In this document: positions 1,550 through 61,518 of the stretch, piece by piece
Layout of the letters: each line of letters starts with the position of its first letter
How positions within the stretch are numbered: position 1 is the first letter of the stretch
Source: Azonexus sp. R2A61
GTDB taxonomy: Bacteria; Pseudomonadota; Gammaproteobacteria; Burkholderiales; Rhodocyclaceae
DNA: 64,000 bases
Reading direction: 5' to 3'
NCBI RefSeq assembly: GCF_021401135.1
Contig: NZ_JACBFO010000001.1
Coordinates: 1 to 64,000, forward strand
Position numbers and translations under genes: made by a program
Notes under the pieces: model-generated
Databases searched by the model: none
Told to the model about the DNA's origin: nothing
Seen by the model: the letters and a program-made list of their open reading frames with translations, nothing else

Positions 1550-3406
1550 TCAGTCGCGACGACGAATTTGCGAAACGTCGCGCACCGCCCCCTTGTCGGC
1601 CGAAGTTGCCATCAGCGCATAGGCCTGCAGCGCGGCGGAAACCTGACGCTGCCGGTCCACCGGCTTCCAGGCAGCCTCGCCCTTGGCATTCATGTTGGCC
1701 CGACGAACCGCCAACTCCTCATCGGTTACCTTCAATTGAATCCGGCGATTCGGAATATCGATTTCGATCACGTCCCCCTCTTCGACCAGGCCGATCGCCC
1801 CGCCATCGGCCGCTTCTGGCGACGCATGACCGATCGACAAGCCCGAGGTACCGCCCGAGAAACGACCGTCGGTCAGCAGCGCGCACGCCTTGCCTAACCC
1901 CATCGACTTCAGATAGGAGGTGGGATACAGCATCTCCTGCATCCCCGGCCCCCCCTTCGGGCCTTCGTAACGGATCACCACCACGTCGCCGGCCACGATT
2001 TTCCCGCCAAGGATCGCGTCGACCGCAGCATCCTGACTTTCGAACACGCGCGCCCGCCCGGTAAAGGTCCAGATCGACTCATCCACCCCGGCCGTCTTGA
2101 CGATGCAACCATCCACCGCGATATTGCCGCGCAACACTGCCAGACCACCATCCTGCGAGTAGGCGTTGGCCCGGTTGCGGATACAGCCCTTGGTCCGGTC
2201 GAGATCCAGTTCGTGGAAACGGCGCTCCTGGGAGAAGGCAACCTGCGTCGGCACACCACCCGGCGCCGCCTTGTAGAATTCGTGCACCTTGACATCGTGC
2301 TCCCGGACCACGTCCCAACGATCGATCGCCTCGCCCAAAGTGCGCGCATGCACGGTTGGAACATCACGACGCAGCAGACCGGCCCGATCGAGCTCGCCAA
2401 GAATCCCCATGATCCCGCCGGCACGATGGACGTCTTCGATGTGATACTTGTCGGTCATCGGCGCCACCTTGCACAGACAGGGTACGGCACGCGAGATGCG
2501 GTCGATGTCGGCCATCGTGAAATCGACACCGGCCTCCTGAGCCGCCGCCAGGATGTGTAGGACGGTATTGGTCGAACCGCCCATCGCGACATCGAGGGTC
2601 ATCGCGTTTTCGAACGCCGCCTTGGTGGCGATCGAGCGCGGCAGGATCGAGGCGTCGTCCTGCTCGTAATAACGCTTGCACAACTCGACAGCCAGGCGAC
2701 CGGCGCGCAGGAACAATTGCTTGCGATCGGCGTGGGTGGCAACGACGGTGCCGTTGCCGGGCAGGCTGAGACCGAGCGCCTCGGTCAGGCAATTCATCGA
2801 GTTGGCGGTAAACATGCCCGAACACGAGCCGCAGGTCGGACAGGCGGAACGCTCGATTTCGTCGAGGTCGGCCTGTGACACACTGGCATCGGCCGCCTTG
2901 ACCATGGCATCGACCAGGTCGAGATGCACGACCTGGCCTTCGAGCTTCACCTTGCCGGCCTCCATCGGGCCACCGGAAACGAAGACGACCGGGATGTTCA
3001 GACGCATCGCGGCCATCAGCATCCCCGGGGTGATCTTGTCGCAATTGGAAATACAGACCATCGCGTCGGCGCAATGCGCATTGACCATGTACTCAACCGA
3101 ATCGGCGATCAGGTCGCGCGACGGCAGCGAATAAAGCATGCCGTTGTGCCCCATGGCAATGCCGTCATCGATGGCGATGGTGTTGAACTCCTTGGCAACA
3201 CCGCCGGCCGCCTCAATCTCGCGCGCGACCATCTGGCCGAGGTCTTTCAGGTGCACGTGACCGGGCACGAACTGCGTGAACGAATTGACCACCGCGATGA
3301 TCGGCTTGCCGAAGTCGCCATCTTTCATGCCGGTCGCGCGCCACAGGGAACGCGCGCCGGCCATATTGCGGCCATGGGTGGAAGTGCGGGAACGGTACTG
3401 GGGCAT
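1550..3406 (-). CDS. ilvD: Dihydroxy-acid dehydratase
   Basis: Catalyses the [Fe-S]-dependent dehydration of 2,3-dihydroxy-isovalerate and 2,3-dihydroxy-3-methylvalerate, the third step of valine/isoleucine synthesis. The 618 residues match the length of E. coli IlvD (616) and share its opening, [20 protein letters not shown]. Cluster-ligand regions are visible as [10 protein letters not shown] and [11 protein letters not shown] start at ATG 3406 because it matches the family N-terminus and has GGAGA in front; an in-frame ATG at 3445 would add 13 residues with no homology. The gene diverges from lgt. A TGCGGTCGAC element sits inside it at 2018-2027. Confidence 0.96.
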
Positions 3407-3502
3407 CTGACTCTCCGTGTCGTGGACCGCGTCAACCGCTGTCACAGGCAGGCAACGGCGCGCGAACTATAATCGACCAATTCTAGCCCAATCCCCAAGA
3501 CG

Positions 3503-4294
3503 ATGCTTCTCCACCCGCAGTTCGACCCGGTTGCCTTTTCGCTCGGCCCACTCGCCGTCCGCTGGTACGGCCTGATGTACCTTGTCGCCTTCCTCCAGTT
3601 CGTCCTGCTCGGCCGGTTACGCATCCGTCAGCGGAGCGGCCCGATGAGCAACGAGCAACTCGACGATCTGTTGTTCTACGGCGTGCTCGGCGTGATCATC
3701 GGCGGCCGGCTTGGGCAGGTGCTGTTCTACGAACCCGGGTATTACTTTGCCCATCCACTGGAAATCGTTGCCGTCTGGAAAGGCGGCATGAGTTTCCATG
3801 GCGGCTTTCTCGGCGTCCTGGTCGCCATGACGTTGTGGGCAAAAAAAGCTGGCCTGCGCTGGTTGACCGTGACCGACTTCATTGCCCCGCTGGTGCCGTT
3901 AGGCCTGGCCGCCGGACGTATCGGCAACTTCATCAACGGTGAACTATGGGGCCGCATCGCCGATCCGTCGCTCCCCTGGGCAATGATCTTTCCGCAATCC
4001 GGCACCAACGATCCGCGCCATCCGTCGCAGCTCTACCACGTCGGCCTTGAGGGACTGGCCCTTTTTGCCATCCTTTGGCTGTGGACCGCAAGACCACGAC
4101 CGACGGGGGCCGCATCCGGCGCATTTCTGATCGGCTACGGCTGCTTCCGCTTCATCACCGAATTCTTCCGCGAACCCGACCACGGCATCTTCGGCCAGTC
4201 CTACGCGGTCAGCATGGGCCAGTGGCTATCACTGCCGATGGTCCTCGCCGGCATCGCGCTTTTACTGCTGGCCTACCGGAGAAAATCCCTATAA
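3503..4294 (+). CDS. lgt: Prolipoprotein diacylglyceryl transferase
   Basis: Inner-membrane enzyme that transfers diacylglycerol from phosphatidylglycerol to the lipobox cysteine of prolipoproteins, the first lipoprotein maturation step. The 263-residue protein is polytopic and contains the family signature [14 protein letters not shown] and the later HPSQLYH motif. Length is usual for Lgt. A TATAAT at 3468-3473 lies 30 bases above the start, but I see no good -35 at the right distance. Several proteins in this window have lipoboxes and would be its substrates (11478-12005, 21533-22969, 32986-34314). Confidence 0.96.
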
Positions 4295-4830: not shown

Positions 4831-5592
4831 ATGGCAGATTTTCCCGACAAGGATATCGAGGAAACCCGAGCTGCCCTCGCGCCGACACTGGACGCCATGG
4901 CGTCCATCCTGCCCTGGGTGGGCAAATCCCAGCCGGTACGCTTCTCTCCCGAGCTCAACAAACGCTGGCAAGCCGCTTGCACGACGCTCGCCGAGCGCTG
5001 GTCGGCACGCGCTAGCGACGGTCCGACCGCGATTCGCCCGGCGATCTTCGGGCTGTTTCCGATCGCCATCGAAAGCGGCGAAGCCGACTGTCTGCTGTTG
5101 TGCGAAACCCTGGCCACGGTTGCCGATCATCTCGAGCATAACCCGCCGGGTTCCCGCCTGGTCGCCGCACTGAGTGCGACCTGCGAGGCGCTCCTCGACG
5201 AGGGCGGACTGGAGAATCCCAAGCTGCTGATACGCGCCCGCCATTTCGCGCAACGGCTGAACGAGGCGCTCCAACCCTCGAGCAAACCCGGCGAACGCTC
5301 GGACGTTCTCGACCGGCTGTTCGTGCAGGATGCCGAGGAGCGCCTTGCCCACATGCGCGAAGCGCTGGACGTGTTGCCGCTGGACGTCGTCGCCCTGGAA
5401 CAGGAAAGTGTCGAACTGATGCAGCAGGCCGAACAGATCGACATGTGGGGCATCTATCATCTGGCACGTCAGCTGCACAATTTCGCGCTACAACTCAGCG
5501 ACGTCAGCGAAAGCGTCCAGGATCAGGCCGCGCTCGACATTGCCCGGCAACTGGATCTGATCGAACAGGCACTGGCTGCGGTCGACCGCTGA
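4831..5592 (+). CDS. Helical protein of unknown function
   Basis: I do not recognise this 253-residue cytoplasmic protein. It has no signal peptide or membrane segment and looks all-helical. The C-terminal half (about 165-250: AEERLAHMREALDVLPLDVV and following) resembles Hpt-like helical bundles, but the HxxKG phosphorylation motif is absent. Start ATG 4831 has a strong GAGGAGG site. It follows the VOC gene in a likely two-gene unit. The last codons read Ala-Val-Asp-Arg-stop and contain TGCGGTCGAC at 5577-5586. It converges on htpX. Confidence 0.7.
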   Translation: MADFPDKDIEETRAALAPTLDAMASILPWVGKSQPVRFSPELNKRWQAACTTLAERWSARASDGPTAIRPAIFGLFPIAIESGEADCLLLCETLATVADHLEHNPPGSRLVAALSATCEALLDEGGLENPKLLIRARHFAQRLNEALQPSSKPGERSDVLDRLFVQDAEERLAHMREALDVLPLDVVALEQESVELMQQAEQIDMWGIYHLARQLHNFALQLSDVSESVQDQAALDIARQLDLIEQALAAVDR

Positions 5593-5605
5593 AACCATGA
5601 AAAAA

Positions 5606-7555: not shown

Positions 7556-8698
7556 ATGTCCTTCCGTCCCTTTGTTCTGGCGCTTGTCGCGCTGCTGTCC
7601 GCCGTTTCCGTCCCTGCCGTCGGCCAGACCCAGCCGGTCCCCCCGGCCCTGGCCGCCAAATCCTGGCTACTGCTGGAAATGAGTTCCGGCCAGACGTTGA
7701 CCGCAGAAAAACCCGACGAGCGCCTTGAACCGGCCTCGCTGACCAAGCTGATGACCGCCTACCTGACGTTCTCGGCATTGCACAAGAAGACGCTGAACCT
7801 CGACCAGCCGCTGCCGGTTTCCGAAAAGGCCTGGCGCACCGGCGGCTCGAAGATGTTCGTCAAGGTGGACACCCAGGTCCCGGTCGAAGAGCTGATCAAG
7901 GGCATGATCGTCCAGTCCGGCAACGACGCCTGTGTCGTGCTCGCCGAAGCGATCGCCGGCAGCGAGGAAAACTTCGCCCAACTGATGAACCGCGAAGCCC
8001 AGCGACTGGGCATGAGCGCCTCCAGTTTCCGCAACTCGACCGGCCTGCCCGATCCCGAGCACTACACCACCGCCCGCGACCTGGCGAAACTCGCCGCCGC
8101 GCTGATCCATGACTTCCCCGAGGAATACCGGAAGTATTACTCGATGAAGGAATACACCTACAACGGGATCACCCAGCCCAACCGCAACCGCCTGCTGTTC
8201 ATCGACCCGACGGTCGACGGCGTCAAGACCGGCCATACCGAAGCCGCCGGCTACTGCCTCATCTCGTCGGCCAAACGCGAGCAGCGCCGGCTGCTGTCGG
8301 TGGTGCTCGGCACGGCTTCCGATAGCGCACGCGCCAGCGAATCGCACAAACTGCTGAACTGGGGCTTCCTCAGCTTCGACTCGGTGATGATCCAGCCGGC
8401 CAGTCAGGCACTGGCCGACGTTCGCGTCTGGAAGGGCAGTCAATCGACCGCCAAGGCCGGCTTTGCCGACGACCTGGCGATCGCGCTGCCGAAAGGCTAT
8501 GCCGACAAGGTCAGCAAGGAATTTGTCGCCGAACCGCGGCTGATCGCACCGATCGAGGCCGGCCAGAAACTGGGTACGCTGAAGCTGGCAGTCGACGGCA
8601 AGCCGTTCGCCGAATACCCAGTCATCGCCCTTGAAAAAGTCGAACTCGGCAACATATTCGTCCGCATCCTCGACACCATTCGCCTGTGGTTCGCCTGA
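7556..8698 (+). CDS. dacC: D-alanyl-D-alanine carboxypeptidase (PBP5/6 family)
   Basis: Periplasmic S11 serine peptidase that removes the terminal D-Ala from peptidoglycan pentapeptides. The 380-residue precursor has a signal peptide (1-23, ending AVG), SLTK with catalytic Ser61 and Lys64, SGN at 121-123 and KTG at 224-226. A beta-rich C-terminal domain follows, ending in an amphipathic helix (IFVRILDTIRLWFA) that anchors such enzymes to the membrane. dat begins 7 bases after the stop. The symbol could equally be dacA; paralogues cannot be separated here. A TGCGGTCAAC variant element lies at 7696-7705. Confidence 0.94.
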   Translation: MSFRPFVLALVALLSAVSVPAVGQTQPVPPALAAKSWLLLEMSSGQTLTAEKPDERLEPASLTKLMTAYLTFSALHKKTLNLDQPLPVSEKAWRTGGSKMFVKVDTQVPVEELIKGMIVQSGNDACVVLAEAIAGSEENFAQLMNREAQRLGMSASSFRNSTGLPDPEHYTTARDLAKLAAALIHDFPEEYRKYYSMKEYTYNGITQPNRNRLLFIDPTVDGVKTGHTEAAGYCLISSAKREQRRLLSVVLGTASDSARASESHKLLNWGFLSFDSVMIQPASQALADVRVWKGSQSTAKAGFADDLAIALPKGYADKVSKEFVAEPRLIAPIEAGQKLGTLKLAVDGKPFAEYPVIALEKVELGNIFVRILDTIRLWFA

Positions 8699-8705: not shown

Positions 8706-9581
8706 ATGACGCCCTACGTCGCCGACCCGGTCTATCTCAACGGCAGTTTCCTGCCGCTGGCGGAGGCCGGCGTGTCGCCGCTCGATCGCGGCTTCCTGTT
8801 CGGCGACGGCGTCTACGAAGTGATCCCGGTCTATTCGCGGCGTCCGTTCCGCATTGACGAACACCTCGGGCGCCTGCAGGCCACGCTCGACGGAGTCGCC
8901 TTGCCCAATCCGCTTGCGGTCGACGACTGGAAACGGGTGATTTCCCGGTTGATCGCAGCAGCGCCATGGGACGATCAGTCGATCTACCTGCAGATCACGC
9001 GCGGCGCGGACGACAAGCGCGATCAGCCCTTCCCGCTGGCCAGCATCCCACCCACGGTTTTTGGCTTCGCCGGCCCGCTGATCACGCCATCGGCCGAACA
9101 GCGGGCACGGGGCGTCGCCGCGATCAGCGTCGCCGACCAGCGCTGGGCGCGCTGCGACCTCAAGGTGATCTCGTTGCTGGCCAACGTCCTGGCCCGCCAA
9201 CAAGCGGTCGAGCAGGGTTGCGCCGAGGCATTGCTGATCCGCGACGGCTATCTGAAGGAAGGCGCAGCATCCAACATCTTCGTCGTTCGCGGCGGACTGC
9301 TGCTCGCGCCGCCGAAGACGCGACTGATGCTGCCGGGCATCACCTACGACCTGGTCATCGAGCTCGCCCATACCTACGGTCAACCGCTCGAAATCCGCGA
9401 AATTGCCGAAACGGAACTTCGCGCCGCCGACGAGGTCTGGATGACCTCGTCGACCAAGGAAGTGCTGGCGATCACCACGCTCGACGGCGAACCCGTCGGC
9501 GATGGCCGCCCCGGCCCGATCGGCGAACGGATGTGGCAGTGGTATCAGGATTTCAAGAACACGGTAATGCGCAAAGGCTGA
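8706..9581 (+). CDS. dat: D-amino acid aminotransferase (class IV, PLP)
   Basis: A fold-type IV PLP enzyme of 291 residues that interconverts D-alanine and D-glutamate via 2-oxo acids, supplying or recycling D-amino acids for the wall. The PLP lysine is in RCDLKVISLLANV and the phosphate-binding region is EGAASNIF. RGFLFGDGVYEVI matches Dat rather than IlvE, though branched-chain or aminodeoxychorismate lyase activity cannot be fully excluded. Position just after dacC (7-base gap) supports a wall-recycling role. TGCGGTCGAC lies at 8915-8924, read as Ala-Val-Asp. Confidence 0.9.
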   Translation: MTPYVADPVYLNGSFLPLAEAGVSPLDRGFLFGDGVYEVIPVYSRRPFRIDEHLGRLQATLDGVALPNPLAVDDWKRVISRLIAAAPWDDQSIYLQITRGADDKRDQPFPLASIPPTVFGFAGPLITPSAEQRARGVAAISVADQRWARCDLKVISLLANVLARQQAVEQGCAEALLIRDGYLKEGAASNIFVVRGGLLLAPPKTRLMLPGITYDLVIELAHTYGQPLEIREIAETELRAADEVWMTSSTKEVLAITTLDGEPVGDGRPGPIGERMWQWYQDFKNTVMRKG

Positions 9582-10471: not shown

Positions 10472-11417
10472 AACCAAGCAAAAAGGCGTCAAGCAAAAGG
10501 GCGAACTGAAGACTGCGCGCATCCCGATCAAAATCGTCCCGGTCGCCGAGCCGCTCAGGAAGCCCGATTGGATCCGCGTCAAGGCCGGCAATAGCGCCGG
10601 CCGCTTCGGCGAGATCAAGTCCATGCTGCGCGAGAAGAAGCTGCACACCGTCTGCGAGGAAGCCACCTGCCCCAACATCGGCGAATGCTTCGGCCGCGGC
10701 ACCGCCACCTTCATGATCCTCGGCGACATCTGCACGCGCCGCTGCCCGTTCTGCGACGTTGGCCACGGCCAGCCCTTGCCGCCCAACCCGGACGAGCCGC
10801 GCGAACTGGCCGAATCGGTCGCCGCGCTGAAGCTGCGTTATGTCGTGATTACCAGCGTCGACCGTGACGACCTGCGCGATGGCGGCGCCCAGCACTTCGT
10901 CGACGTGATCAGCAACGTCCGCCAGCTGTCGCCGACGACCACCGTCGAAACCCTGGTCCCCGACTTCCGCGGCCGCATGGACGTCGCCCTCGAGGTCCTC
11001 GGCGGCGCCCTGCCCGACGTGTTGAACCACAACATGGAAACCGTGCCGCGCCTCTACAAGCAGGCCCGTCCCGGTGCCGACTACAAGCACTCCCTGGAAT
11101 TCCTCAAGCAGTTCAAGGCGCGCTATCCAAACGTCTCGACCAAGTCCGGCCTGATGGTCGGTCTCGGCGAAACCGACGAGGAAATCCTCGAAGTCATGCG
11201 CGACCTGCGCGCCCACGACGTCGAGATGCTGACCATCGGCCAGTACCTGGCGCCGTCCGGCCACCACCTGCCGGTGACGCGCTACGTTCACCCGGACGTG
11301 TTCAAGATGTACGAAGAAGAAGCGAAAAAGATGGGATTCTCCGGCGCGGCCTGTGCGCCGATGGTGCGTTCGTCCTACTGGGCCGACCAGCAGGCGCACT
11401 CGGCCGGCGTTTCCTGA
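10464..11417 (+). CDS. lipA: Lipoyl synthase LipA (radical SAM)
   Basis: Inserts two sulfurs into protein-bound octanoyl groups. The 317-residue protein has the auxiliary 4Fe-4S ligands Cys64, Cys69 and Cys75 ([12 protein letters not shown]) and the radical-SAM CxxxCxxC at Cys90, Cys94 and Cys97. The C-terminal RSSYWADQQ carries the conserved RSSY serine. A Lys-rich N-terminal extension (about 35 residues) is common in betaproteobacteria. Start ATG 10464 overlaps the lipB end. A TGCGGTCAAC element and a terminator follow. Confidence 0.97.
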
Positions 11418-11421: not shown

Positions 11422-11431
11422 TGCGGTCAAC
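11422..11431 (+). repeat. TGCGGTCAAC interspersed element, 4 bases past lipA
   Basis: Variant copy of the TGCGGTCGAC element described in the findings, in the short gap between the lipA stop and its terminator. Confidence 0.6.
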
Positions 11432-12366: not shown

Positions 12367-12438
12367 AGGCTTGTTGACCGAAAGATAGACCAGCCGTCGA
12401 CGCGTCGGCAGCGGAAAATTGCTACAGTTTGTAACGCC

Positions 12439-13817: not shown

Positions 13818-14987
13818 TCATGCTTGTTGCATTGCAGCATTCGCCCCCTTGCGATTGCTGCCGGCCACCATACGTATCCCGAACAGTCGGCATTCGAGCG
13901 GCCCGTTGAACAACGGCGTCTTGCGCGCCGGCTTGAGCCCGACCAGTTTGGGCAGCCGCAGATCGGCGGTGAAGAAATGACAGTTCCAACCGGCCCAGCG
14001 CTGCTTCAGCGCGCTGCCGAGCTGCGGGTAGAAGGCGGCCAGTTCGTCCTGTTCGCCGATGCGCTCGCCGTAGGGCGGATTGGTCAGCAGCACGCCGGGG
14101 TCGCCGGCCGGCGGTTCGATTTCCAGCAGATCGCCGCGGTCGACCCGAACACAGTCGCCAAAACCGGCTTCCTGCAGGTTGCGGCGGGTGGCGCGGACGG
14201 CCTTGTCGTCGATGTCCCAGCCATGGATCGCCAGCGGCCCAGCCGGCTTGACACGGGCCTCGGCGGCTGCGCGGATCGATGCCCACAGCGGCGCGTCAAA
14301 GCGTTTCAGCAGTTCGAAGGCGAAGGCGCGATCCAGACCCGGCGCGCGATCCAGCGCCACCTGCACGGCTTCGAGCAGGAAGGTGCCGCTGCCGCACATC
14401 GGATCGACCAGCGGCTCGCCCGGCTGCCAGCCGGACAGCTTGAGGATGCCGGCCGCCAGGTTCTCCTTCAGCGGCGCGTCCACCGTGGCCTTGCGGAAAC
14501 CGCGCTGCCACAGCGGTTGACCCGAAGTATCGAGATACAGCGTGCATTGGTTCTCGGTCAGGAAAACGTGGACGCTGACGTCCGGATGGCGCGTATCGAT
14601 GTCCGGCCGCTCGCCGAGGTCTTCGCGGAAGCGGTCGCAGACGGCGTCCTTGACGCGCAGCGTGACGTAGTCGAGCGACTTGAGCGGGCACTTGATCGCC
14701 GTCGTCACCACGCGCATCGTCCGCGACACGGCGAAATGGTTGGGCCACAGCTGACGCACGGCCAACCGATAGATGTCGTCTTCCTTGGCGTAGGGCCCGG
14801 TGACGATGTGCCAGAGGATGCGCGTCGCCAGCCGGGATTCCAGGTTGGCGCGGTAGCACACCGCCCAGTCGCCGGAAAAATGCACGCCGCCATGGGTCGA
14901 CCGCAACTCTTCGGCGCCGACCGAGCGCAACTCCTCGATCAGTAGTTCTTCCAGCCCACGCGGGCAGATCGCGAAATATTTGTTCAT
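13818..14987 (-). CDS. rlmL: THUMP-domain 23S rRNA methyltransferase, RlmL-like
   Basis: A 389-residue protein matching the N-terminal half of E. coli RlmKL (YcbY), which methylates G2445 of 23S rRNA to m2G. A THUMP RNA-binding domain (about 45-155) precedes a class I SAM fold with DPMCGSGTFLLEA (motif I) and the catalytic LTNPPYGERI. The RlmK half found fused in enterobacteria is absent, as is normal outside that group. hemJ ends 1 base upstream of its start, suggesting one operon. TGCGGTCGAC occurs at 14896-14905. Confidence 0.9.
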   Translation of the reverse strand: MNKYFAICPRGLEELLIEELRSVGAEELRSTHGGVHFSGDWAVCYRANLESRLATRILWHIVTGPYAKEDDIYRLAVRQLWPNHFAVSRTMRVVTTAIKCPLKSLDYVTLRVKDAVCDRFREDLGERPDIDTRHPDVSVHVFLTENQCTLYLDTSGQPLWQRGFRKATVDAPLKENLAAGILKLSGWQPGEPLVDPMCGSGTFLLEAVQVALDRAPGLDRAFAFELLKRFDAPLWASIRAAAEARVKPAGPLAIHGWDIDDKAVRATRRNLQEAGFGDCVRVDRGDLLEIEPPAGDPGVLLTNPPYGERIGEQDELAAFYPQLGSALKQRWAGWNCHFFTADLRLPKLVGLKPARKTPLFNGPLECRLFGIRMVAGSNRKGANAAMQQA

Positions 14988-17998: not shown

Positions 17999-18008
17999 GT
18001 CGACCGCA
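17999..18008 (-). repeat. TGCGGTCGAC interspersed element between lysE-like gene and livF
   Basis: Exact minus-orientation copy in the 53-base gap between two convergent genes. It is followed on the plus strand by GCAATGCGGCC, which partly re-pairs with the element. See findings. Confidence 0.7.
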
Positions 18009-21469: not shown

Positions 21470-21479
21470 GTCGACCGCA
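21470..21479 (-). repeat. TGCGGTCGAC interspersed element in the livH leader
   Basis: On the minus strand the element is followed directly by GGAAAAAAC and the livH ATG, so it lies 9 bases above the start and abuts the ribosome binding site. Confidence 0.7.
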
Positions 21480-22969: not shown

Positions 22970-23104
22970 CGGGTTTCTCCTGTGAAGGTTCGGGGTGCAG
23001 GGCAAGCCCCGATTCTGCGCATGCATCCGGCACACGTCAATCGTCGTCTGGCGCCCGGAAGCCGGCCCGGCCCCGCCGGCGCCGGAATTCCTGCGCAATC
23101 CGCG

Positions 23105-42333: not shown

Positions 42334-42475
42334 GACATCGGCCTCGCTGGAAATGACGGGAAGGCGCTCATGGTAGGCCGCTTTCGCCACCCGGCCATTG
42401 TCGTGACTGACGACAATCGTGCAAATTCCGCCAAGGTGCTAAGCTATCACGGTCGACACCCCGGAAAGCCCAAAA

Positions 42476-46489: not shown

Positions 46490-46499
46490 TGCGGTCGAC
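46490..46499 (+). repeat. TGCGGTCGAC interspersed element in the divergent region
   Basis: Exact copy, 50 bases upstream of the -35 box of the RHH-PspA operon. Confidence 0.7.
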
Positions 46500-50147: not shown

Positions 50148-50189
50148 TGCGGTCGACGGAAAAATCTGACATTTTTCCCGTCGACCGCA
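50148..50189. terminator. Terminator-like hairpin built from two inverted TGCGGTCGAC elements
   Basis: TGCGGTCGAC-GG-AAAAAT (50148-50165) pairs with ATTTTT-CCC-GTCGACCGCA (50171-50189) through 18 bp with a single unpaired C, loop CTGAC. It begins 18 bases after the yqiK stop. The A/T tracts form the upper stem. Confidence 0.8.
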
Positions 50190-51064: not shown

Positions 51065-53149
51065 ATGAATCGCCCGCTCGCCTGGCTGGCATCCTTCCGG
51101 CTGCGCATCCTGCTGCGCACCTCCTTCCTCTTCCTCGCCGTGGTCGTGCTGATGATGACGGTCACCGTCCTGCAAGAGGAAAAACAGCGCAGCAACGACA
51201 ATTACCGTAGTGGTCTGCTCAAAACCAAGGAACAGATCGTCGCCCGGCTGCTTCATCCGGCAGGCCAGCTGGCCTTGCTCAATCCGCGCTGGGACGCCGC
51301 CTCGGCGGCGGAGGGCCGACCGTTGCTGCTGCCCTTCTCGGCAATCGATTTCGACGACCAGAACAAGGCCAGAAACGCCATCGAAATGGCCAACTGCCTG
51401 ACCCAGTTTCCCGATCATGGCAGCCTGTGCATTGCCATCGGCAACAATCCCTGGGCGGGCGGTTATCTCTATATCGCCGGCACTTTCGCCAGTGGCCCGC
51501 TGAGTGCTCATCGGATTGGCGACGAGTTTCTCGATGGCGCGCACCGCCTGCGCGTCGAAGTCAGTCTGGGAGAGCTGCGCTGGCATTGGATCGCCCCGTT
51601 CGAAACGCTCGTTGGCAACGCGACCGGCGCCGGCGAAGGCATCCGGGGCCGGTTTACCGGCTATCGCGAACTGACCGGCCGCGATTACACCGGCGCCCGC
51701 CCGCTGCGCGAATTCCGTGGCTGGATCTGGCAAAACGGCCAATGCCTGGAAAAGGCTGCGGTCGACAGCGAAAATTGTCGGAAAAAGTCGTTCTTTTCGC
51801 TGCGCCTGCCAGTCGAAACGCTGCGCACGGCGATCCTGGGCAGCCGCCAGCCGGTCTGGCCGCCACGCGATCTCGATCAATACAAGGTCCGCATCGAACT
51901 TCTGCCGCCCGGCGACGGCGCTGCAATCTTTTCGAATGCGCATCCGGGCAGCCAGCCTTCGTTTGCGCTCGACGCGCTTGCCGGGCTACTCGCGGCCGGC
52001 GAAACGCTGAGCATCCAGCGCATCGATAACGGCCAGGAAACACCGGTCGCCCAGTTGCTCGGTCGCGCTGACGACGAAGCCCCCTCGTCGCCGCTGCTTG
52101 CCCGACTGATCCGCCATCTGCCGGTCGACTCGCTGGATACCCCGCTGGTCGAACTGACGGATGAAATCGCCACGCCACTCGGCAACTACCGCCTGCAACT
52201 CAACGGCGACGCGCGCAGCGTAAACCAGCGCCTGGCCGCAGTCGCCACCCGACTGTCGTGGTTCATCGGGGCGATGCTCGGAGCCATCGCAGTCGCCTGG
52301 CTGGTCATCGAAACCGGCCTGATCCGGCGGATTGCCCGATTGACCCGCCGGACCCGCGGCCTGTCGCAGTCGGTACACACCGACGGCGGACTGGAACGCT
52401 ACGAACTGGCCGACCTGCGCGGCCGTGACGAACTCGGCCTGCTGGCCGGCGGTCTCGACGAACTATTGCACCGGGTACGCGAAGATGCCGACCGCGAGCA
52501 CATCCGGGCTGCGCAGGAGAAGGACATGTGGCACGCGGTCGGTCACGAAATCGTCTCGCCGCTGCAGAGCCTGCTCGCCCTGCACGGTAACGCCGACGAC
52601 CCGAGCCATCGTTACATCAGCCGGATGCAGCAAGCAATCCGCGTGCTTTATGGCAGTGCCAGCCCGAGCGAAGCGTTTGCCGGCAGCCAGTTGGACAGTG
52701 CTGCGGTCGACCTGGCGATTTTTCTGAAAACCGTCGCCGAACATGCCGGAATTGCCGATGTACGGTGCGTCGGCATCGACGCGCCGCTTTTCGTGCGCGC
52801 CGATGAATTTGCACTGGAAGACGTTTTTTCCCACCTGTTGCGCAATGCCGAACGTTACCGTCCGGCCGATACGCCAATCACCTTGAGCCTCTCCGCCGAT
52901 GAGCGTCTGGCCCATGTCGCCGTGGCCAATCGCGGGCCGCGCATTGCCGACGACAGGCTCGAACAAATCTTCGAATACGGCGTTTCGGACCAGCCGGAAT
53001 CCGCGGCGGAGGGCAACCGCGGCCAGGGCTTGTTCGTCGCCCGGACCTACATGGCCAAAATGAGCGGCACCATCGTCGCCCGCAATACCGACGATGGCGT
53101 TGTTTTCCTGCTCACGCTGCCCCGTGCCGAATCGCCCTCGGCGCGCTGA
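51065..53149 (+). CDS. Sensor histidine kinase with a large periplasmic domain
   Basis: A 694-residue kinase. Helix 1 at 15-36, a roughly 360-residue periplasmic domain I do not recognise (37-397, Cys at 111, 122, 227, 238), and helix 2 at 398-420. HAMP-like sequence follows, then HisKA with HAVGHEIVSPLQSL (His494) and a C-terminal HATPase (LRNAERYRP, GNRGQGLFVART). Paired with the response regulator upstream. Two TGCGGTCGAC elements fall in it (51757-51766 and 52702-52711), both read Ala-Val-Asp. Confidence 0.88.
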   Translation: MNRPLAWLASFRLRILLRTSFLFLAVVVLMMTVTVLQEEKQRSNDNYRSGLLKTKEQIVARLLHPAGQLALLNPRWDAASAAEGRPLLLPFSAIDFDDQNKARNAIEMANCLTQFPDHGSLCIAIGNNPWAGGYLYIAGTFASGPLSAHRIGDEFLDGAHRLRVEVSLGELRWHWIAPFETLVGNATGAGEGIRGRFTGYRELTGRDYTGARPLREFRGWIWQNGQCLEKAAVDSENCRKKSFFSLRLPVETLRTAILGSRQPVWPPRDLDQYKVRIELLPPGDGAAIFSNAHPGSQPSFALDALAGLLAAGETLSIQRIDNGQETPVAQLLGRADDEAPSSPLLARLIRHLPVDSLDTPLVELTDEIATPLGNYRLQLNGDARSVNQRLAAVATRLSWFIGAMLGAIAVAWLVIETGLIRRIARLTRRTRGLSQSVHTDGGLERYELADLRGRDELGLLAGGLDELLHRVREDADREHIRAAQEKDMWHAVGHEIVSPLQSLLALHGNADDPSHRYISRMQQAIRVLYGSASPSEAFAGSQLDSAAVDLAIFLKTVAEHAGIADVRCVGIDAPLFVRADEFALEDVFSHLLRNAERYRPADTPITLSLSADERLAHVAVANRGPRIADDRLEQIFEYGVSDQPESAAEGNRGQGLFVARTYMAKMSGTIVARNTDDGVVFLLTLPRAESPSAR

Positions 53150-53158: not shown

Positions 53159-54802
53159 TCAGCGACGGATTTCCAGCAGACTGTCGTCCCAGGCCGGATG
53201 CTTGTCATAGCCGAGCAGGCCGGCAACGGTCGCCGCAATGTTCGACAGGCCGGCGGTTTCGCGCTGCTTCAGCCCTAGCCGGCCGTCGCTCGCGTTGTCG
53301 TAGAGGATCAACGGCACCGGATTCAAGGTATGCGCCGTCTTCGCCTTGAACGAGCCGTCGGCGTTCTGCGCCGGCTGCTTGGTCTTTTTGTCGAGTTCGA
53401 ACATCTCGTCGGCATTGCCGTGGTCGGCGGTGATCAACGCCACCCCGCCCGCCGCGTCGACCGCCTTGAGCAGACGACCGAGCGACAGGTCGACTGCCTC
53501 GATGGCGATGCGCGCCGCGTCGAAGTTGCCGGTGTGGCCGACCATGTCGCCGTTGGCGAAGTTGCAGCGCAGCACCCGGTACTGGCCGGACTGGATCGCC
53601 GCGATCATCGCATCGGCGATTTCGGCCGCCTTCATCCACGGCCGCTGCTCGAAAGGCACGACGTCGCTCGGCACCTCGGCATAGGTCTCGCCGTCGAATT
53701 TGCCGGAACGGTTGCCGTTCCAGAAGTAGGTCACGTGACCGAACTTCTGCGTTTCGGAACAGGCGAACTGCGTGATCCCGGCCTTGCTGAACCATTCGCC
53801 GGACGTGTCCTTGATCGCCGGCGGCGCCACCAGGAAGCGCTTCGGCAACTGCAGGTCGCCGTCGTACTGGAGCATGCCGGCGTAGGTCACCTGCGGGTAA
53901 CGGACGCGGTCGAACTTGTCGAAATCGGCCTCGACGAAGGCGCGGGTGATCTCGATCGCGCGGTCGCCGCGGAAGTTGAAGAAAACCACCGAATCGCCGT
54001 CCTCGATCGTGCCGATCGGCTTGCCGGCATCGGCAATGACAAACTCCGGCAGGTCCTGGTCGATGGTCCCGGGATTTTGCTCGCGCAGGCCGTTGACCGC
54101 AGCAGTCGCATTCGCAAACTGGCGGCCTTCGCCGAGCACGTGCGTGCGCCAGCCTTTCTCGACCATCGCCCAGTTGGCGTCGTAGCGGTCCATGGTGATG
54201 TACTGGCGACCGCCGCCGGAAGCGATGCGGGCGTCGAAGCCGGCGTCGCTGATGCCGGCGAGGAAGGCCTCGAAAGGCACGACGTAGTCGAGGGCGCTGG
54301 TTTCCGGCACGTCGCGGCCGTCGAGCAAGGCATGGATGCGCACCGTCCGCACGCCATCAGCCTTGGCCCGCTCGACCATCGCCCTGAGATGGTCGATGTG
54401 GCTATGTACGTTGCCGTCCGAGAACAGGCCGATGAAATGCACGACGCCGCGCCCGGCCTTGGCGCCGGCGACGATCTCCCGCCACGCCTGACCGTTCCAG
54501 ATGGCGCCTTCGGCAATCGCATTGGCGACCAGTGCGGCCCCCTGCGCATAGACCTGGCCGGCGCCGATCGCATTGTGGCCGACCTCGGAATTGCCCATGT
54601 CGTCATCGGACGGCATGCCGACCGCGGTCCCGTGGGCACGCAAGCGGATATTCGGGTAGCTGGCAAACAGGCGATCCAGCGTCGGCTTCCTAGCCGCCGC
54701 GATGGCGCTGCCGACATCGGTCTTCGGCAATCCGTAACCATCCATCACGATCACCACGACAGGGCCGGCGACACCCGGGAAATCCGTTTTCTTTTGCAGC
54801 AT
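53159..54802 (-). CDS. gpmI: 2,3-Bisphosphoglycerate-independent phosphoglycerate mutase
   Basis: A two-manganese glycolytic/gluconeogenic enzyme, 547 residues, interconverting 3- and 2-phosphoglycerate. VVVIVMDGYG at the N-terminus, the catalytic Ser in DDDMGNSEVGHNAIGAG, and metal ligands in GDMVGHTGNF and ITADHGNADEM are all present. ATG 54802 follows CAGGAAAGAAC; the upstream ATG 54841 is less likely. It converges on the sensor kinase with a 9-base gap. Confidence 0.96.
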   Translation of the reverse strand: MLQKKTDFPGVAGPVVVIVMDGYGLPKTDVGSAIAAARKPTLDRLFASYPNIRLRAHGTAVGMPSDDDMGNSEVGHNAIGAGQVYAQGAALVANAIAEGAIWNGQAWREIVAGAKAGRGVVHFIGLFSDGNVHSHIDHLRAMVERAKADGVRTVRIHALLDGRDVPETSALDYVVPFEAFLAGISDAGFDARIASGGGRQYITMDRYDANWAMVEKGWRTHVLGEGRQFANATAAVNGLREQNPGTIDQDLPEFVIADAGKPIGTIEDGDSVVFFNFRGDRAIEITRAFVEADFDKFDRVRYPQVTYAGMLQYDGDLQLPKRFLVAPPAIKDTSGEWFSKAGITQFACSETQKFGHVTYFWNGNRSGKFDGETYAEVPSDVVPFEQRPWMKAAEIADAMIAAIQSGQYRVLRCNFANGDMVGHTGNFDAARIAIEAVDLSLGRLLKAVDAAGGVALITADHGNADEMFELDKKTKQPAQNADGSFKAKTAHTLNPVPLILYDNASDGRLGLKQRETAGLSNIAATVAGLLGYDKHPAWDDSLLEIRR

Positions 54803-55130
54803 GTTCTTTCCTGAGAAAAGGCCGATATCGATCATCGACACCGGGCAACTTCGCGCCCCGGCGGGGGCAAAAAATGCAATTTTAGCGCGTCGACCGCAAG
54901 CCGGAGGAACTCGCCGATGGCATCAGCGATCGATGTGCATGAGCAGCGCCGCTGGTCGACAAGAAATTTGCAATCAGTTATGCCATGATGAACAAAAGCC
55001 ATCCGGCATAACAACGCAGCCCCGACCAAAAACCTGACACTTTTGCCAGTTCAGGCCGCCAATCAACTTTTTTGCAATGTTTGTAATATAGTTTCGGGAC
55101 TAAATCACAAATCCCCAGCGAACAGCCATC
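54803..55130. other. 328-base divergent region between gpmI and the chemotaxis operon
   Basis: It holds one TGCGGTCGAC element (54889-54898) near gpmI, and an AT-rich stretch (about 55068-55110, TTTTTTGCAATGTTTGTAAT region) that should include the che promoter. I could not fit a consensus -35/-10 pair with normal spacing. No open frame is called. Confidence 0.5.
54889..54898 (-). repeat. TGCGGTCGAC interspersed element upstream of gpmI
   Basis: Exact minus-orientation copy about 87 bases above the gpmI start codon, followed on that strand by GCGCTAAAATTGC. Confidence 0.7.
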
Positions 55131-55511: not shown

Positions 55512-56789
55512 ATGACCCCTGCCCAGATGTTGCGACGAACGACCCTGGTCACCGCTACGGTCGCCGTAGTGGCCTTCACGGTCGTCTATCTGCTGAACGA
55601 CTGGTTCCACGACAGCCTGCTGAGGCAGCTCGGTGTGCCGCAACCGCTGGGCGACGCGATTGGAACCGTACTGATCATCTTCCTGGCCTACCTCGGGCAA
55701 CGTACCGCTTCGCTGGCCTTCTTCAAAGACATCATGTACGGCATGACGACGCAGCAGGCCCTGGTCGCTTCGCAGGTCAGCAACGTTGAAAACATCGGCG
55801 AGGAAGTCGCCGGAGAACTCGTTCAGGTCAGGCACTTCAACACGGTCCTGAGCAACCAGCTGCATTCGGTGATTTCGACGACCGAAAAGGCCGCCTACGA
55901 CATCACCGAACGCCTGCTGGCAATCGATGCCGTGGTCAACCGGCTGGACAGCTTCGTTTCCCGCATCGCCGAGGATGCCACCGCGATCGTCGCCAGTTCG
56001 GAGCACGACATCGCCGGCAACCGCGAACTGATCGCCAGGATGGACGACTACATCCGGCGGCGGATCGATGAGGCCAGCCAGGACCAGAGCCGCATCGAAC
56101 AGGTCGTCAAGCAGGCCCAGGATCTGGGCAGCCTGGTCCAGCTGATCCGCGACATTTCCGCGCAGACCAACCTGCTGGCGCTGAATGCCGCCATCGAGGC
56201 GGCACGTGCCGGCGAGGCAGGCCGTGGATTCGCCGTGGTTGCCGACGAGGTGCGCAAACTGTCCGGCGAGACCGACACTGCGGTCAACAAGATCAACGAC
56301 GGCATCAACCGGGTCGCCAGCTCGATCCGCCAGCAGTTCCAGGACAAACTGGACGTCAGCAACGTCGAGGCCGAGCGCGCTGCACTGGTGGCATTTTCCG
56401 ATCAGCTGACGCGCCTCGGTCAGGGCTACCAGACGCTGCTCGAACACGACACCCGCGTCATCGCCACCGCTCGCGACTCGAGCGCCGAACTGACCCGGAT
56501 GTTCATGGATATCCAGGCCAGCATTCAGTTCCAGGACATTACCCGCCAGCAGATCGAGCAGGTGATCGCCGCCCTGAGCAAACTGAACGCGCACGCCGAG
56601 CTGCTCGCCGAACGCATCAAGTCCTCGGAACAGGCAGATTTCCGCTTCACGCCGCTGGCCGAGCATCTGGAACAGATGTTCAGCAGCTACGTCATGGACA
56701 CCCAGCGCAGCGACCACCAGAAGGCCTCCCAGCCCGGCAACCGCACGACGGCAAGCACCGCGCCGCGCAGCAACATCGAACTTTTCTGA
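55512..56789 (+). CDS. Receptor-like methyl-accepting protein without a periplasmic sensor
   Basis: A 425-residue protein with two closely spaced hydrophobic segments (about 13-28 and 44-63) and practically no periplasmic domain, so it probably senses inside the cell. The signalling region contains [39 protein letters not shown], with an unusual LSGETD in place of LAERT. It ends in a flexible tail, SNIELF, shared with CheD of the same operon. ATG 55512 is preferred over GTG 55506 because CCGGAG lies before it. Confidence 0.82.
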
Positions 56790-57101: not shown

Positions 57102-59291
57102 ATGGATGAACTGACCAGCGTCTTCATCCAGGAAGGCAGGGAGCAATTGCAGGCGCTGGAAAGCGGCTTGCTCCAGCTCGAACAGAACCCGGAAGATCAC
57201 GACAACATCAACGGCATCTTCCGCGCTGCGCATACGATCAAGGGCGCCTCGGGCGTCATCGAGTGCCACTTCATCGAAAGCTTCATGCACAAGGTCGAGA
57301 ATGTGCTCGACCGGCTGCGCAACGCAGAAATCGGGGTTTCGGCCGAGTTGACCGGCGTATTGCTGCGTGCCTGCGACCATCTCGCGCAGTTGATGGATGT
57401 TCTCGAGAGTGGCGCAACGGAACCGGAGCCGTTCGTGCTCGCGGCCGGCGAGCGCCTGATCGGCGAACTGGCAGCCTATCTGCCGACCGCGCCGACCGGC
57501 ATCGTCGAAGCCGAATCCGAGGTCGAAGCCTCCGGCGGCGGCGTGGTGAACACCGATAGCTGGCACATTTCCGTCCGTTTCGGCCCGCACATGCTGCGCG
57601 GCGGCATGGATCCGCTGTCCTTCATCCGTTTCCTGGGCTCGCTCGGCGAGATCGTCGCCATCGAAACGCTGGCCGACGGCATGCCCGATGCCGCAGAGAT
57701 GGATCCCGAAGCCTGTTACCTCGGCTTCGAAATCCGGCTGCAGACGCGTGCCGGCAAGGCGGATATCGAACGCGTCTTCGATTTCTGCAGCGACGACTGC
57801 GATCTGCGCATCCTGCCGCCGAACAGCAAGTTCGCCGAATACGTCAAACTGATTCGCGAACTACCCGAGGACGACATGCGCCTCGGCGAAATCCTGGTCC
57901 GCTGCGGCGCCATCACCGAAGCCGAACTGGAAGCAGGACTGAAGCTGCAACATGCGCCCGCCCCGGACGCTTCGCTGCCCAGCCTGGGCGATCCGCCGAA
58001 ACCGCTGGGAGAAATCCTGGTCGAAAACAAGGTGATCCAGAAGGAAGTCATCGACGCGGCAGTCACCAAGCAGACCCAGGTCAACGAGAAGAAGGCCGTC
58101 GAGGCGCGCCTGATCCGCGTTCAGGCCGACAAGCTGGACCAGCTGATCGACCTGGTCGGCGAACTGGTCATCGCCGGCGCCTCGACCAACCTGCTGGCGC
58201 AGCGCAGCGGCCAGGGGGAACTGGTCGAATCGACCTCGATCCTGTCGCGGCTGGTCGAGGACATCCGCGACTCGGCGCTGCAACTGCGCATGGTGCAGAT
58301 CGGCGAAACCTTCAACCGCTTCAACCGTGTAGTCCGCGACGTCTCGCGCGAGCTGGGCAAGGAAATCGATCTGCAGATATCCGGTGGCGAGACCGAACTC
58401 GACAAATCGGTCGTCGAAAAAATCGGCGACCCGCTGATGCACCTCGTCCGCAATTCGATCGACCACGGCATCGAAGCCGGCGATCTCCGCGAATCGCGCG
58501 GCAAGCCACGCCGCGGCACGGTGGTGCTGAACGCCTTCCACGACTCGGGTAGCATCGTCATCGAAGTCGGCGACGACGGCGGCGGCCTGCCGCGCGACAA
58601 GATCCTGCACAAGGCGATCGACAAGGGACTGGTGCCTGCCGGCCAGAATCTCAGCGACCAGGAAATCATCAACCTGATCTGGGAACCCGGCTTCTCGACG
58701 GCCGAGCAAGTCACCAATCTTTCGGGGCGCGGCGTCGGCATGGATGTCGTCCGCAAGAACATCCAGAACCTGCGCGGCAACTGCGACGTCAGCAGCGAGG
58801 AGGGCAAGGGAACGACCTTCACCATCCGCCTGCCGCTGACCCTGGCGATCATCGACGGATTTCTGGTCAGTGTCGGCAAGTCCTCCTACGTCATTCCGCT
58901 CGACATGGTCATCGAATGCATCGAACTGCGCGAAGGGGGCGCCGACCGCGACTACCTGAACCTGCGCGGCGAAGTCCTGCCCTTCGTTCGGCTGCGCGAC
59001 ATGTTCGACATTGCCGGTCGGCGGCCGGCACGGGAAAACGTCGTCGTCGTCCAGTACGCAGGCCAGAAGGCCGGCATCGTCGTCGATCAGTTGATGGGCG
59101 AGTTCCAGACCGTGATCAAACCGCTGTCGAGCATTTTCCGGCACCTGCGCGGCATCGGCGGCTCGACCATCCTGGGCAGCGGCGAAGTCGCGCTGATCCT
59201 CGACGTTCCCACACTGATCCAGCGCAACATCGCCAGCGGAAACCAGCTACAGCAAGCCCGACGCCTCCAGCTCGGCAACACCAGTTTATGA
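57102..59291 (+). CDS. cheA: Chemotaxis histidine kinase CheA with a MshEN-like insert
   Basis: A 729-residue cytoplasmic kinase that phosphorylates CheY and CheB. The Hpt domain has His44 in [11 protein letters not shown]. Residues about 153-240 form a sensor-like alpha-beta domain ([20 protein letters not shown]) seen in related CheAs. Residues 260-283 and 301-324 are two copies of an RLGEILVxxGxI...Q motif resembling the MshEN/T2SSE-N domain. Dimerisation ([17 protein letters not shown]), HATPase ([25 protein letters not shown]) and a CheW-like domain complete it. Confidence 0.95.
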
Positions 59292-59322
59292 ATCCACGCA
59301 TCGCCTCAAAGGGGAATCCCAC

Positions 59323-61518
59323 ATGCTCAAGAACCTGAAAATCGGCAGCAAGATCGGCGCAGGTTTCGCCATCGCGATCCTGTTCCTGGTCGCCATCTCG
59401 GTGATCAGCCTTTCCCGTCTGCAGCAACTCAACGACGGCATCGACACGCTGGTCAATGTCCGTTTCCCGGGAACGGTCCAGGCCAACAGCATCATCGAAA
59501 ACCTGAACATCGCGGCACGAGCCACCCGCAACATGCTGCTCGATCCCAGCGAGGCAACCGTCAAGGCCGAAACGGAACGGATCACCGGCCCCGACGGCGC
59601 GTCGGCCAAAATCACCAAGGCCATGGACTATCTCGACAAGGCGCTCGATGAACCCAAAGCGCGCGAGCTGTTCAGCACGATGGCACAAAGCCGGGTCGAA
59701 TACCGGACGCACCTGCTGCGCTTCTTCGAGCTGGCCAAGGCCGGCAAACGCGACGAAGCCTCCCAACTGCTGTTCGGCGACATGCGCCGGACGCAGAACA
59801 CTTACATGGAAGCGATCGCCAAGCTGATCGCGCACGAAACGGAACAGGTCAACGCCCAAGGCAGACAGGCACAAGAAACCGTCGCTGCAGCGCGGACCCA
59901 GATCATTGCGCTGGGCATCATCGCCACGCTGCTGGCGACCCTGATCGGCTTCATCGTGACGCGGGCGATCACCCGCCCGGTGTCCGAAGTGGTCGATGCG
60001 GCCGGCAAAATGGCGGTCGGTGATTTCAAGTTCTCGCTGCAGTCGGATGCCCGGGACGAAGTCGGCCAGGTGGTCCGCGCCGTGGCCGCCGTCCAGTCCG
60101 CCGTTCAGGCGATGATCGTCGACGCCGACACCCTGGCCAAGGCGGCCGTCGACGGCAAATTGTCGACGCGTGCCGATGCCGAACGTCACCAGGGCGATTT
60201 CCGCAAGATCGTCGAAGGCGTCAACGCAACGCTCGATGCCGTCATCGGACCGCTCAACGTTGCCGCCAACTACGTCGACCGCATTGCCCAGGGCGACATC
60301 CCGTCACGGATCACCGATACCTACAACGGTGATTTCAACGCCATCAAGAACAACCTCAATACCTGCATCGACGCGGTCAACAAGCTGGTCGCCGATGCCA
60401 ACGCCCTGTCTGCCGCCGCCGTCGCCGGCAAACTCGACACCCGGGCCGACGCCACCCAGCACCAGGGCGATTTCCGCAAGATCGTCGAAGGCGTCAACGC
60501 CACCCTCGACGCCGTCGTGTCGCCGATCCAGGACGTGCAGCGCGTCATGGGCGCGATGGAGCAGGGCGACATGACCCAAACCATCACCCAGGCCTACAAC
60601 GGCGATTTCGACGTCCTCAAGCTGGCGATCAACAACACCATCGCCAAGCTTTCCGACACCGTCGGCCAGATCATCATCGCCGCCGACGCGCTGTCCAATG
60701 CGTCGGCCCAGGTCTCCGCCACCGCCCAGTCGCTGAGCCAGGCCTCGTCGGAACAGGCCGCCTCGGTCGAGGAAACCACCGCCAGTCTCGAACAGATGAC
60801 CGCTTCGGTCAGCCAGAACACCGAGAACGCCAAGGTCACCGACAACATGGCCACCAAGGCCGCCAAGGAAGCCGGCGAAGGCGGCGAGGCGGTCGGCAAG
60901 ACGGTCGACGCGATGAAGTCCATCGCCGACAAGATCGGCATCATCGACGACATCGCCTACCAGACCAACCTGCTGGCGCTGAATGCCGCCATCGAAGCGG
61001 CCCGTGCCGGCGAACACGGCAAGGGCTTCGCCGTCGTCGCCGCCGAGGTCCGCAAGCTGGCCGAGCGCTCCCAGGTGGCCGCCCAGGAAATCGGCGAACT
61101 TGCCGACTCCTCGGTCAAGGCCGCCGAACGTGCCGGCCACCTGCTCGAGGAAATGGTCCCGTCGATCCAGAAGACCTCCGACCTGGTCCAGGAAATCGCC
61201 TCCGCCTCGGAAGAGCAATCGACCGGCGTGTCGCAGATCAACAATGCCATGGGGCAACTGAACAAGGCCACCCAGCAGAACGCTTCGGCGTCGGAAGAGC
61301 TGGCTGCCACGGCCGAGGAACTCGGCGGACAGGCGCATCAACTGCAGCAACTGATGGGCTTTTTCTCGGTCGAAACGACGTCGACCGCAGCAGTCCCGCA
61401 CTTCGCCCAGGCACCGGCCCGGAACGCACCGGCACGCAGCCAGCCCGCCCCGCGCCCCGCCGCCTATGCACGGTCGACCGCTTCGCTGCTCGACGAATCC
61501 GACTTCGAGAAATTCTGA
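59323..61518 (+). CDS. Methyl-accepting chemotaxis protein with duplicated linker modules
   Basis: A 731-residue chemoreceptor. Helix 1 at 9-30, a four-helix-bundle periplasmic sensor (about 31-190), helix 2 at 195-214, HAMP, then repeated HAMP-like modules: [17 protein letters not shown] occurs twice, 91 residues apart, and YNGDF also recurs. The signalling tip is [38 protein letters not shown]. After the coiled coil comes a Pro/Ala-rich flexible tail ending DESDFEKF, possibly a tether for CheR or CheB. It is encoded within the che operon. Confidence 0.94.
60187..60500 (+). repeat. 41-bp exact direct repeat inside the chemoreceptor gene
   Basis: The identical 41 bases at 60187-60227 and 60460-60500 encode [14 protein letters not shown] in both HAMP-like modules. 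The flanking module sequence is more diverged, so recent duplication or gene conversion is likely. Confidence 0.85.

Follow-up and report, generated by a model that had tools for sequence, protein, structure and literature searches.

A candidate DNA uptake signal sequence with a downstream A/T tract in the betaproteobacterial genus Azonexus/Dechloromonas

Two described systems come closest to the element that we report here, a 10-base word, TGCGGTCGAC, that is scattered through positions 1 to 64,000 of contig NZ_JACBFO010000001.1 of Azonexus sp. R2A61 (hereafter, the window, meaning the whole stretch of 64,000 nucleotides that was analysed). The first is the DNA uptake sequence (DUS) of the Neisseriaceae, a lineage that is betaproteobacterial as well. 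The DUS (GCCGTCTGAA) has a 10-base core with very many copies and with dialects (PMC3630211), and is continuous, with no flanking motifs (PMC1626085, PMC12616744); it is up to ~13 bases long. The second is the uptake signal sequence (USS) of the Pasteurellaceae (Hin, AAGTGCGGT; Apl, ACAAGCGGT), for which the same two sources describe a short strict core followed by two A/T segments at roughly helical spacing, with hundreds to thousands of copies, many of them coding, and with subclade types (PMC1626085, PMC12616744). Its receptor, ComN (PpdA), is given there as a prediction only (PMC12616744).

The Azonexus element shares with the DUS the 10-base core, the very large number of copies and the existence of dialects, but its core is a different one and it is not continuous, as a separate A/T tract lies downstream of 70% of the exact copies. 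With the USS, it shares the short strict core, the A/T sequence downstream, the copy number, the many coding copies and the presence of types within the clade. There are, moreover, two A/T segments, a strong one at +26..30 and a weaker one at +17/18, and in two relatives (G161 and G196) the first segment is stronger and an extra one is added. Unlike the USS, however, the element has the core CGGTCRAC, or YRCGGTCRAC when its variable bases at the 5' end are included, and not NNNGCGGT or ANNNGCGGT; its main tract lies at +26..29, with a first segment that is weak in R2A61; one of its dialects, the CA dialect CACGGTCGAC, lacks GCGGT altogether; and its host is a high-GC betaproteobacterium, within whose genus the presence of the element varies. 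The string TGCGGT, which the original prediction had singled out as common to the element and the Pasteurellaceae USS and which is shared with that of Haemophilus, can be dispensed with, given that a sister dialect opens with CACGGTC. Judging from sequence, we consider it probable that natural transformation uses the element as a DNA uptake signal sequence: this reading passes nearly all of the sequence tests that we ran, namely those for genome-wide excess, absence of strand bias, a sharp consensus with its helically spaced tract, dialects among related species, change in place at most compared sites, and scarcity in both a prophage and a low-GC polysaccharide island.

The word is far more abundant than chance or codon usage would provide. 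In the window, all 21 exact copies of TGCGGTCGAC (either strand) and all 8 copies of the variant TGCGGTCAAC that had been predicted were confirmed in place, compared with 0.37 and 0.22 copies expected from dinucleotide shuffles of the window. As had also been stated, 8 exact and 3 variant copies lie between genes, so that intergenic DNA, which makes up 6.2% of the window by our gene calls, holds 11 of the 29 copies. The excess extends to the whole R2A61 genome (3.73 Mb, 13 contigs), where the exact word occurs 647 times forward and 609 times reverse (1256 in all) and the reversed-word control 5 + 7 = 12 times, while the core with its tract (CGGTCRAC-N15-WWWW) occurs 1785 times versus 7 for the control. 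Detailed statistics were obtained on 464 kb of the contig that carries the window, and these 464 kb contain 164 exact copies. Coding DNA in this region holds 129 copies of TGCGGTCGAC, whereas 50 within-gene shuffles of synonymous codons gave 9.3 on average and never more than 15; for TGCGGTCAAC, 38 copies compare with 1.6 after such shuffling. The count thus does not equal that set by codon usage. Intergenic DNA, 6.4% of the 464 kb by crude gene calls, contains 34 of the 164 exact copies, as opposed to 15 for all 30 one-mismatch words pooled. In a scan of the 10-mers of R2A61, TGCGGTCGAC scored z 61.7, followed in second rank by TGCGGTCAAC (46 copies, z 31.6).

Alignment of the 164 exact copies revealed a feature that is absent from the original prediction. 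At +26 to +29, the A/T content rises to 80-96% from a background of 37%, within a strong tract that spans +26..30, and weaker A/T peaks appear at +17/18, -3/-4 and -12/-13. Of the 164 exact copies, 115 (70%; background, 2.0%) are followed by a full WWWW at +26..29; in the window, the A/T tract is present at all but two of the 21 exact copies (19) and at half of the variant copies (4 of 8). The same tract follows 32/46 copies of TGCGGTCAAC, 23/44 of CGCGGTCGAC, 8/10 of TACGGTCGAC and 11/15 of CACGGTCGAC, compared with 13/867 matches to shuffled words, and it follows no copy in the 464 kb of the one-mismatch words altered at positions 4-7, 9 or 10. From the presence of the tract by variant, the allowed core is YRCGGTCNAC, with position 8 usually G or A: cores with CAAC, CTAC or CCAC still have the tract, and TGGGGTCGAC, with a tract in 4/5 copies, is the exception at position 3. 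The element therefore consists of two variable bases, the strict inner core CGGTCRAC and, downstream, an A/T tract. Around the core, A/T recurs most strongly, among the long periods tried, at 10 bases (amplitude 0.101), which the codon period of 3 nearly equals (0.090). Two overlapping copies on opposite strands form a 14-bp palindrome, TGCGGTCGACCGCA, of which the 464 kb contain 14 perfect sites, 8 of them with tracts on both sides.

Among the genera sampled, the element is restricted to one. NCBI taxonomy places Azonexus in the Azonexaceae (Rhodocyclales, Betaproteobacteria), and we compared 76 genomes of the genus Azonexus/Dechloromonas, denoted here by G-numbers. When 395 family genomes were scanned for CGGTCRAC-N15-WWWW, 18 of the 22 sampled genus members held 553-1785 copies (controls across the genus, 5-31), and the remaining four held 105 (G154), 98 (G112), 40 (G181) and 19 (G170, whose control of 22 was not exceeded). 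None of the 373 genomes outside the genus, from 67 other genera of the family, exceeded 27 copies. The element was thus found in a single genus and not family-wide. The exact word alone reached up to 70 copies in other genera (146 family genomes), often slightly more than its reversed control. Among the 76 genus genomes, the exact word with its tract was counted 865 times in R2A61, at least 100 times in 26 genomes and as few as 0 times (controls, 0-4), in counts that use a variable gap and so can score a single site repeatedly, which inflates them. In pooled 20-kb loci of 15 element-rich relatives, the tract follows 25 of 34 exact copies and 19 of 23 copies of TGCGGTCAAC. Loci around ComEC were taken from named genomes as the best 80 of 349 relatives: the nearest matches among these are Azonexus and Dechloromonas records (55-61% identity), and the first 16 loci hold 39 sites (8/16 with any; control, 0), as opposed to 6 sites in the 1.1 Mb of the following 64 loci (4 control matches). 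Among these named relatives, Dechloromonas sp. Dech2017 has 6 core-plus-tract copies in 22 kb. No alternative uptake-like word was dominant in 10-mer scans of the element-poor genomes G150, G170 and G157 (100 kb each, z <12).

Within the genus, the element has dialects at positions 1-2, which read TG (TGCGGTCGAC) or CA (CACGGTCGAC). The CA word with its tract was counted 648 times in G201, 613 in G147, 353 in G156, 173 in G205 and 110 in R2A61, and fewer than 100 times in each of the other 71 genus genomes; the exact TG word with its tract was found only 27 times in G201 and 29 times in G147, where it should be borne in mind that the two patterns permit different gaps and that their counts are not strictly comparable. 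Scans of 100 kb each gave CACGGTCRAC for G147 and YGCGGTCRAC for G155. Of the CA-dialect species, G147 and G156 stand apart in a weak tree and G201 lies outside it. In G161 and G196 (100 kb each) the element reaches its greatest length and uniformity: it extends over nearly 40 bases, includes three A/T tracts and reads roughly TTGC-YACGGTCAAC-CGGAAAAA-CGGCC-AAAATTGAAAT. Here, 17 copies in G161 and 26 in G196 show strong A/T at +14..19, +25..30 and +32..35, the positions +26..29 being those by which the copies were selected.

We then asked how individual sites differ between relatives by aligning orthologous 20-kb loci in five pairs of genomes, with counts taken by hand and overlapping cores counted twice. 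Element classes (+, - and ?) were given to 34, 21 and 6 of 61 genomes; they mix three counts and are arbitrary near their limits, and among the '?' genomes we counted G153 (0.50 sites/kb) as rich, but G151, with 2 sites in 19 kb, and G159, with 0, as poor. In the three pairs of element-rich genomes (94-96% identity), the inner core was kept at 21 of 22 tract-bearing sites, and over all 33 sites only 2 of 264 inner-core bases had changed, as compared with ~13 expected at the mean divergence; positions 1-2 showed 8 changes in 66 bases. In the two rich-poor pairs (82-86% identity), the poor genome had only 2 of 17 sites intact, where divergence by itself would leave ~4. Of the 15 sites lost, 10 aligned without gaps over the 10-mer and differed by 1-3 substitutions, so that these copies were gained or eroded in situ, and 5 fall within gaps. 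On a tree of IspH and ArgD that covers 61 of the 76 genus genomes (16/61 without ArgD) and is weakly resolved (28/58 inner branches open), the element-rich species cluster, requiring 13 changes versus 20.2 when shuffled, and just 1 of 500 shuffles was as low. Two members, G179 and G204, sit on a very long branch of this tree, their IspH being 65% and 71% identical to that of R2A61 (most genus members, 78-84%).

The stretches of the 464 kb that lack the element are also informative, bearing in mind that we chose them because the element is missing there. The longest ones free of core plus tract measure 20.6 kb (53% GC), 15.1 kb (55% GC) and 14.3 kb (60% GC), whereas a maximum of ~11 kb is expected. 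The first of these contains sugar-nucleotide genes and is a polysaccharide island (two proteins tested, others judged by eye), with 1 tract-bearing copy versus ~10 expected from the overall density. The 14.3-kb stretch is a prophage (contig 5, ~146239-158826) that encodes portal, terminase, head and endolysin proteins; it holds 7 occurrences of CGGTCRAC and none with a tract, against ~6 tract-bearing copies expected. This scarcity is as biased uptake predicts for recently acquired DNA.

The machinery for taking up DNA appears to be in place. ComEC was found in all 15 genomes tested, element-rich and element-poor (in G162 and G157 as pieces), and in all 20 genomes examined for HHH_3 there was one match in a long frame plus a second match each, the latter of which we read as ComEA-like; PF11773 (ComGE) gave 0/15 matches. 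R2A61 encodes PilM, N, O and P, a secretin that we took as PilQ, and 11 N_methyl pilin-like matches. One of its minor pilins (contig 6, 827703-828101) matches the ComP_DUS family PF16732 with 79 bits (cut-off, 27.3), and the best solved-structure match of its globular part is PilE 4noa. As a separate observation, ComEC of the element-rich genome G160 lies in two places, C10:856383-856889 and C17:32473-32772, with one in-frame TAG, which reflects either an assembly break or two genes.

Several observations weigh against the uptake reading. Element-poor genomes have the competence genes as well, and pilins of the ComP_DUS family occur alike in element-rich (R2A61, G160, G158) and element-poor (G170 and G159; PilE-like) genomes. 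The ComP_DUS pilin and a fimT-pilV-pilW-pilX-pilY1-pilE operon beside ispH were sought in 61 of the 76 genus genomes, where some loci are cut short or free of a pilin operon, and no receptor was found among the pilins sought in these ispH loci. The minor pilin operon itself was considered as the determinant of the element and rejected: its types are mosaic and do not track with the element, and the sisters G152 and G153, of equal density in 19 kb, carry different types. Protein constraint may account in part for the conservation of the inner core. In the 464 kb as a whole, the 164 perfect cores are outnumbered by 252 one-mismatch copies (30 words); two tolerated variants make up 90 of these 252, and among tract-bearing copies only, perfect cores number 115 versus 82 with one mismatch (summed from counts). 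The 15.1-kb element-free stretch holds aroB-aroK-pilQPONM and is not obviously a mobile element or an acquisition, and two further element-free gaps of 8-10 kb have ordinary GC. Close pairs of cores that do not overlap, 19 in number, are no more frequent than chance. Finally, the literature that we searched contained no transformation or uptake data for these bacteria.

Two of these loci deserve separate mention. The minor pilin operon beside ispH, as compared among 60 relatives, is highly mosaic in both gene order and sequence, even between the sisters G152 and G153. The segment aroB-aroK-pilQ-pilP-pilO-pilN-pilM (contig 5, ~93830-100560; aroK assigned by eye) has 50% GC in a genome of 63% GC and contains no tract-bearing element.

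Among other explanations, the one that fares best, albeit an improbable one, is that the element is the genome-wide binding site of a nucleoid-associated protein, with the tract as a bending site, serving compaction or domain organisation and not uptake. Such a role would agree with the occurrence of copies in both orientations and in coding and intergenic DNA alike, and a bipartite core with a helically phased tract would suit a protein that wraps DNA. It fits poorly, however, with a fall from ~1800 copies to background within one genus, with dialects that differ at two core bases, and with a prophage that carries 0 tract-bearing copies where ~6 are expected. The consensus of the word is, in addition, sharper than is usual for proteins of this kind.

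Clearly less likely still is a methylase or mismatch-repair word that acts independently of orientation, as in HIP1 of cyanobacteria, a highly iterated short word in coding and intergenic DNA that is a pure palindrome and has no A/T tract. The core does contain GTCGAC, and the 464 kb do include the 14 perfect palindromes described above, but a palindrome is not needed, because CAAC, CTAC and CCAC are tolerated with the tract kept. We know of no role in such systems for a tract 15 bases away.

Inverted pairs of copies could, in turn, hint at transcription terminators or another element acting at the RNA level. In the window, the exact copies at 50148..50157 (+; tract 50173-50176) and 50180..50189 (-; tract 50161-50164) form the left and right arms of an inverted pair 3' of the predicted gene 48474-50129 (+), and the variant TGCGGTCAAC copies at 32953..32962 (+) and 32968..32977 (-), both without tract, form the arms of a hairpin 3' of the predicted gene 32986-34314 (-). 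Both pairs fold into strong hairpins (z -5.0 to -7.5, three folds), and of the 10 pairs in the 464 kb that are 10-59 bp apart, 8 are convergent. As a general explanation this is nevertheless refuted and very improbable: most copies are single and coding (129/164 exact copies), and they occur in both orientations relative to the host gene (90/86). Pairs of cores at most 100 bp apart number 50, compared with 22.8 expected, yet 31 of these are overlapping palindromic cores, 4 bases apart, that are not hairpin arms, and the others are not in excess. Of the inverted pairs that the original prediction had mentioned, the two in the window thus do follow genes, whereas the wider excess consists mostly of overlapping palindromes, with the rest at chance level.

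We give an equally small chance to a dispersed mobile or REP-like repeat. The nearly 40-base, very uniform element of G161 and G196 and the 5 of 15 lost sites that lie in gaps would be in keeping with it, but the other 10 lost sites align gap-free with 1-3 substitutions, and the aligned rows contain no target-site duplications or empty sites, for which no dedicated search was made. The part of the window between 32 and 46 kb was likewise considered as a mobile element and rejected, as the 7 proteins scanned there (of 10 window proteins) gave 6 ordinary families and 1 sub-threshold match. A motif of replication or recombination polarity can be set aside almost entirely: Chi and KOPS, which are read by DNA-translocating enzymes, are frequent short words, as is the core here, but they are strand-biased along the replichore, while the element, as the original prediction had noted, is equal in orientation (647/609 genome-wide; 118/111 for core plus tract in the 464 kb, and 107 of 196 core-plus-tract sites forward, a summed count, in 14 consecutive stretches of negative GC skew), which argues against Chi- or KOPS-like polarity.

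The remaining copies in the window are distributed as follows. Exact copies of TGCGGTCGAC on the forward strand, with their tracts in brackets, lie at 5577..5586 (5602-5605), 8915..8924 (8940-8943), 20508..20517 (20533-20536; overlapped by a reverse CGCGGTCGAC at 20512), 51757..51766 (51782-51785) and 52702..52711 (52727-52730), and, in intergenic DNA, at 28122..28131 (28147-28150) and 46490..46499 (46515-46518). Those on the reverse strand lie at 2018..2027 (1999-2002), 14896..14905 (14877-14880), 15111..15120 (15092-15095), 27186..27195 (27167-27170), 31896..31905 (31877-31880) and 61380..61389 (61361-61364), at the intergenic sites 17999..18008 (17980-17983), 21470..21479 (21451-21454), 23105..23114 (23086-23089) and 54889..54898 (54870-54873), and at 18398..18407, without the full WWWW tract, and 60274..60283, without tract. 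The variant TGCGGTCAAC is found on the forward strand at 11422..11431 (intergenic; tract 11447-11450), 63945..63954 (tract 63970-63973) and 56279..56288 (without tract), and on the reverse strand at 7696..7705 (tract 7677-7680), 28332..28341 (tract 28313-28316) and 54092..54101 (without tract).

Related cores that have the tract are also present. CGCGGTCGAC occurs on the forward strand at 14135..14144, 15740..15749, 18065..18074, 39217..39226 and 23101..23110, where it overlaps the exact copy on the opposite strand at 23105. The word of the other dialect, CACGGTCGAC, lies at 10857..10866 (-) and 42448..42457 (+), and TGCGGTCCAC at 4081..4090 (-) and 30471..30480 (+). Single instances are CACGGTCAAC at 3862..3871 (-), TACGGTCAAC at 9375..9384 (+), TTCGGTCAAC at 12373..12382 (-), GGCGGTCAAC at 17651..17660 (+) and GACGGTCGAC at 40873..40882 (+), along with CCCGGTCCAC at 43489..43498 (-) and GCCGGTCAAC at 57347..57356 (-), both of which may be chance matches. 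Apart from the element, the window encodes at 39070-42390 (-) one protein that combines a B12-binding domain with a MeaB GTPase domain and one of methylmalonyl-CoA mutase, and that presumably resembles a fused isobutyryl-CoA mutase.

If the element is an uptake signal, its history could be pictured by analogy with the Pasteurellaceae and Neisseriaceae. A DNA receptor on the cell surface, part of the type IV pilus or competence machinery, would bind the core, and the A/T tract, roughly two helical turns downstream, might ease bending or melting of the helix at the pore. DNA bearing the element would then enter more often and recombine into the chromosome, and over many generations such biased uptake would install the element wherever the genome tolerates it. 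An altered preference of the receptor would give rise to a new dialect, and where the bias was lost, copies would decay. We regard it as reasonably likely that environmental Azonexus and Dechloromonas harbour a third uptake-signal lineage, which evolved independently, came by convergence to the Pasteurellaceae plan of a strict core and A/T tracts spaced by roughly one helical turn, and is still in the process of change, with dialects and near-absence within one genus. Full-text literature searches, for the word and for uptake sequences in relatives, returned no report of the element, although most subscription papers were outside their reach and novelty is thus unproven.

So far, uptake sequences have been regarded as special to two bacterial families, and the finding of a third lineage, among high-GC Betaproteobacteria, would demonstrate repeated evolution of the trait. 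Were this so, the A/T tracts would meet a physical requirement for passing DNA through the pilus secretin, and uptake specificity would be gained and lost often. Because dialects and absence both occur within one genus, comparative genetics could be used to search for the receptor and to examine how specificity arises, changes and disappears; in practice, the element could also be of use as a tag when these environmental bacteria are to be transformed.

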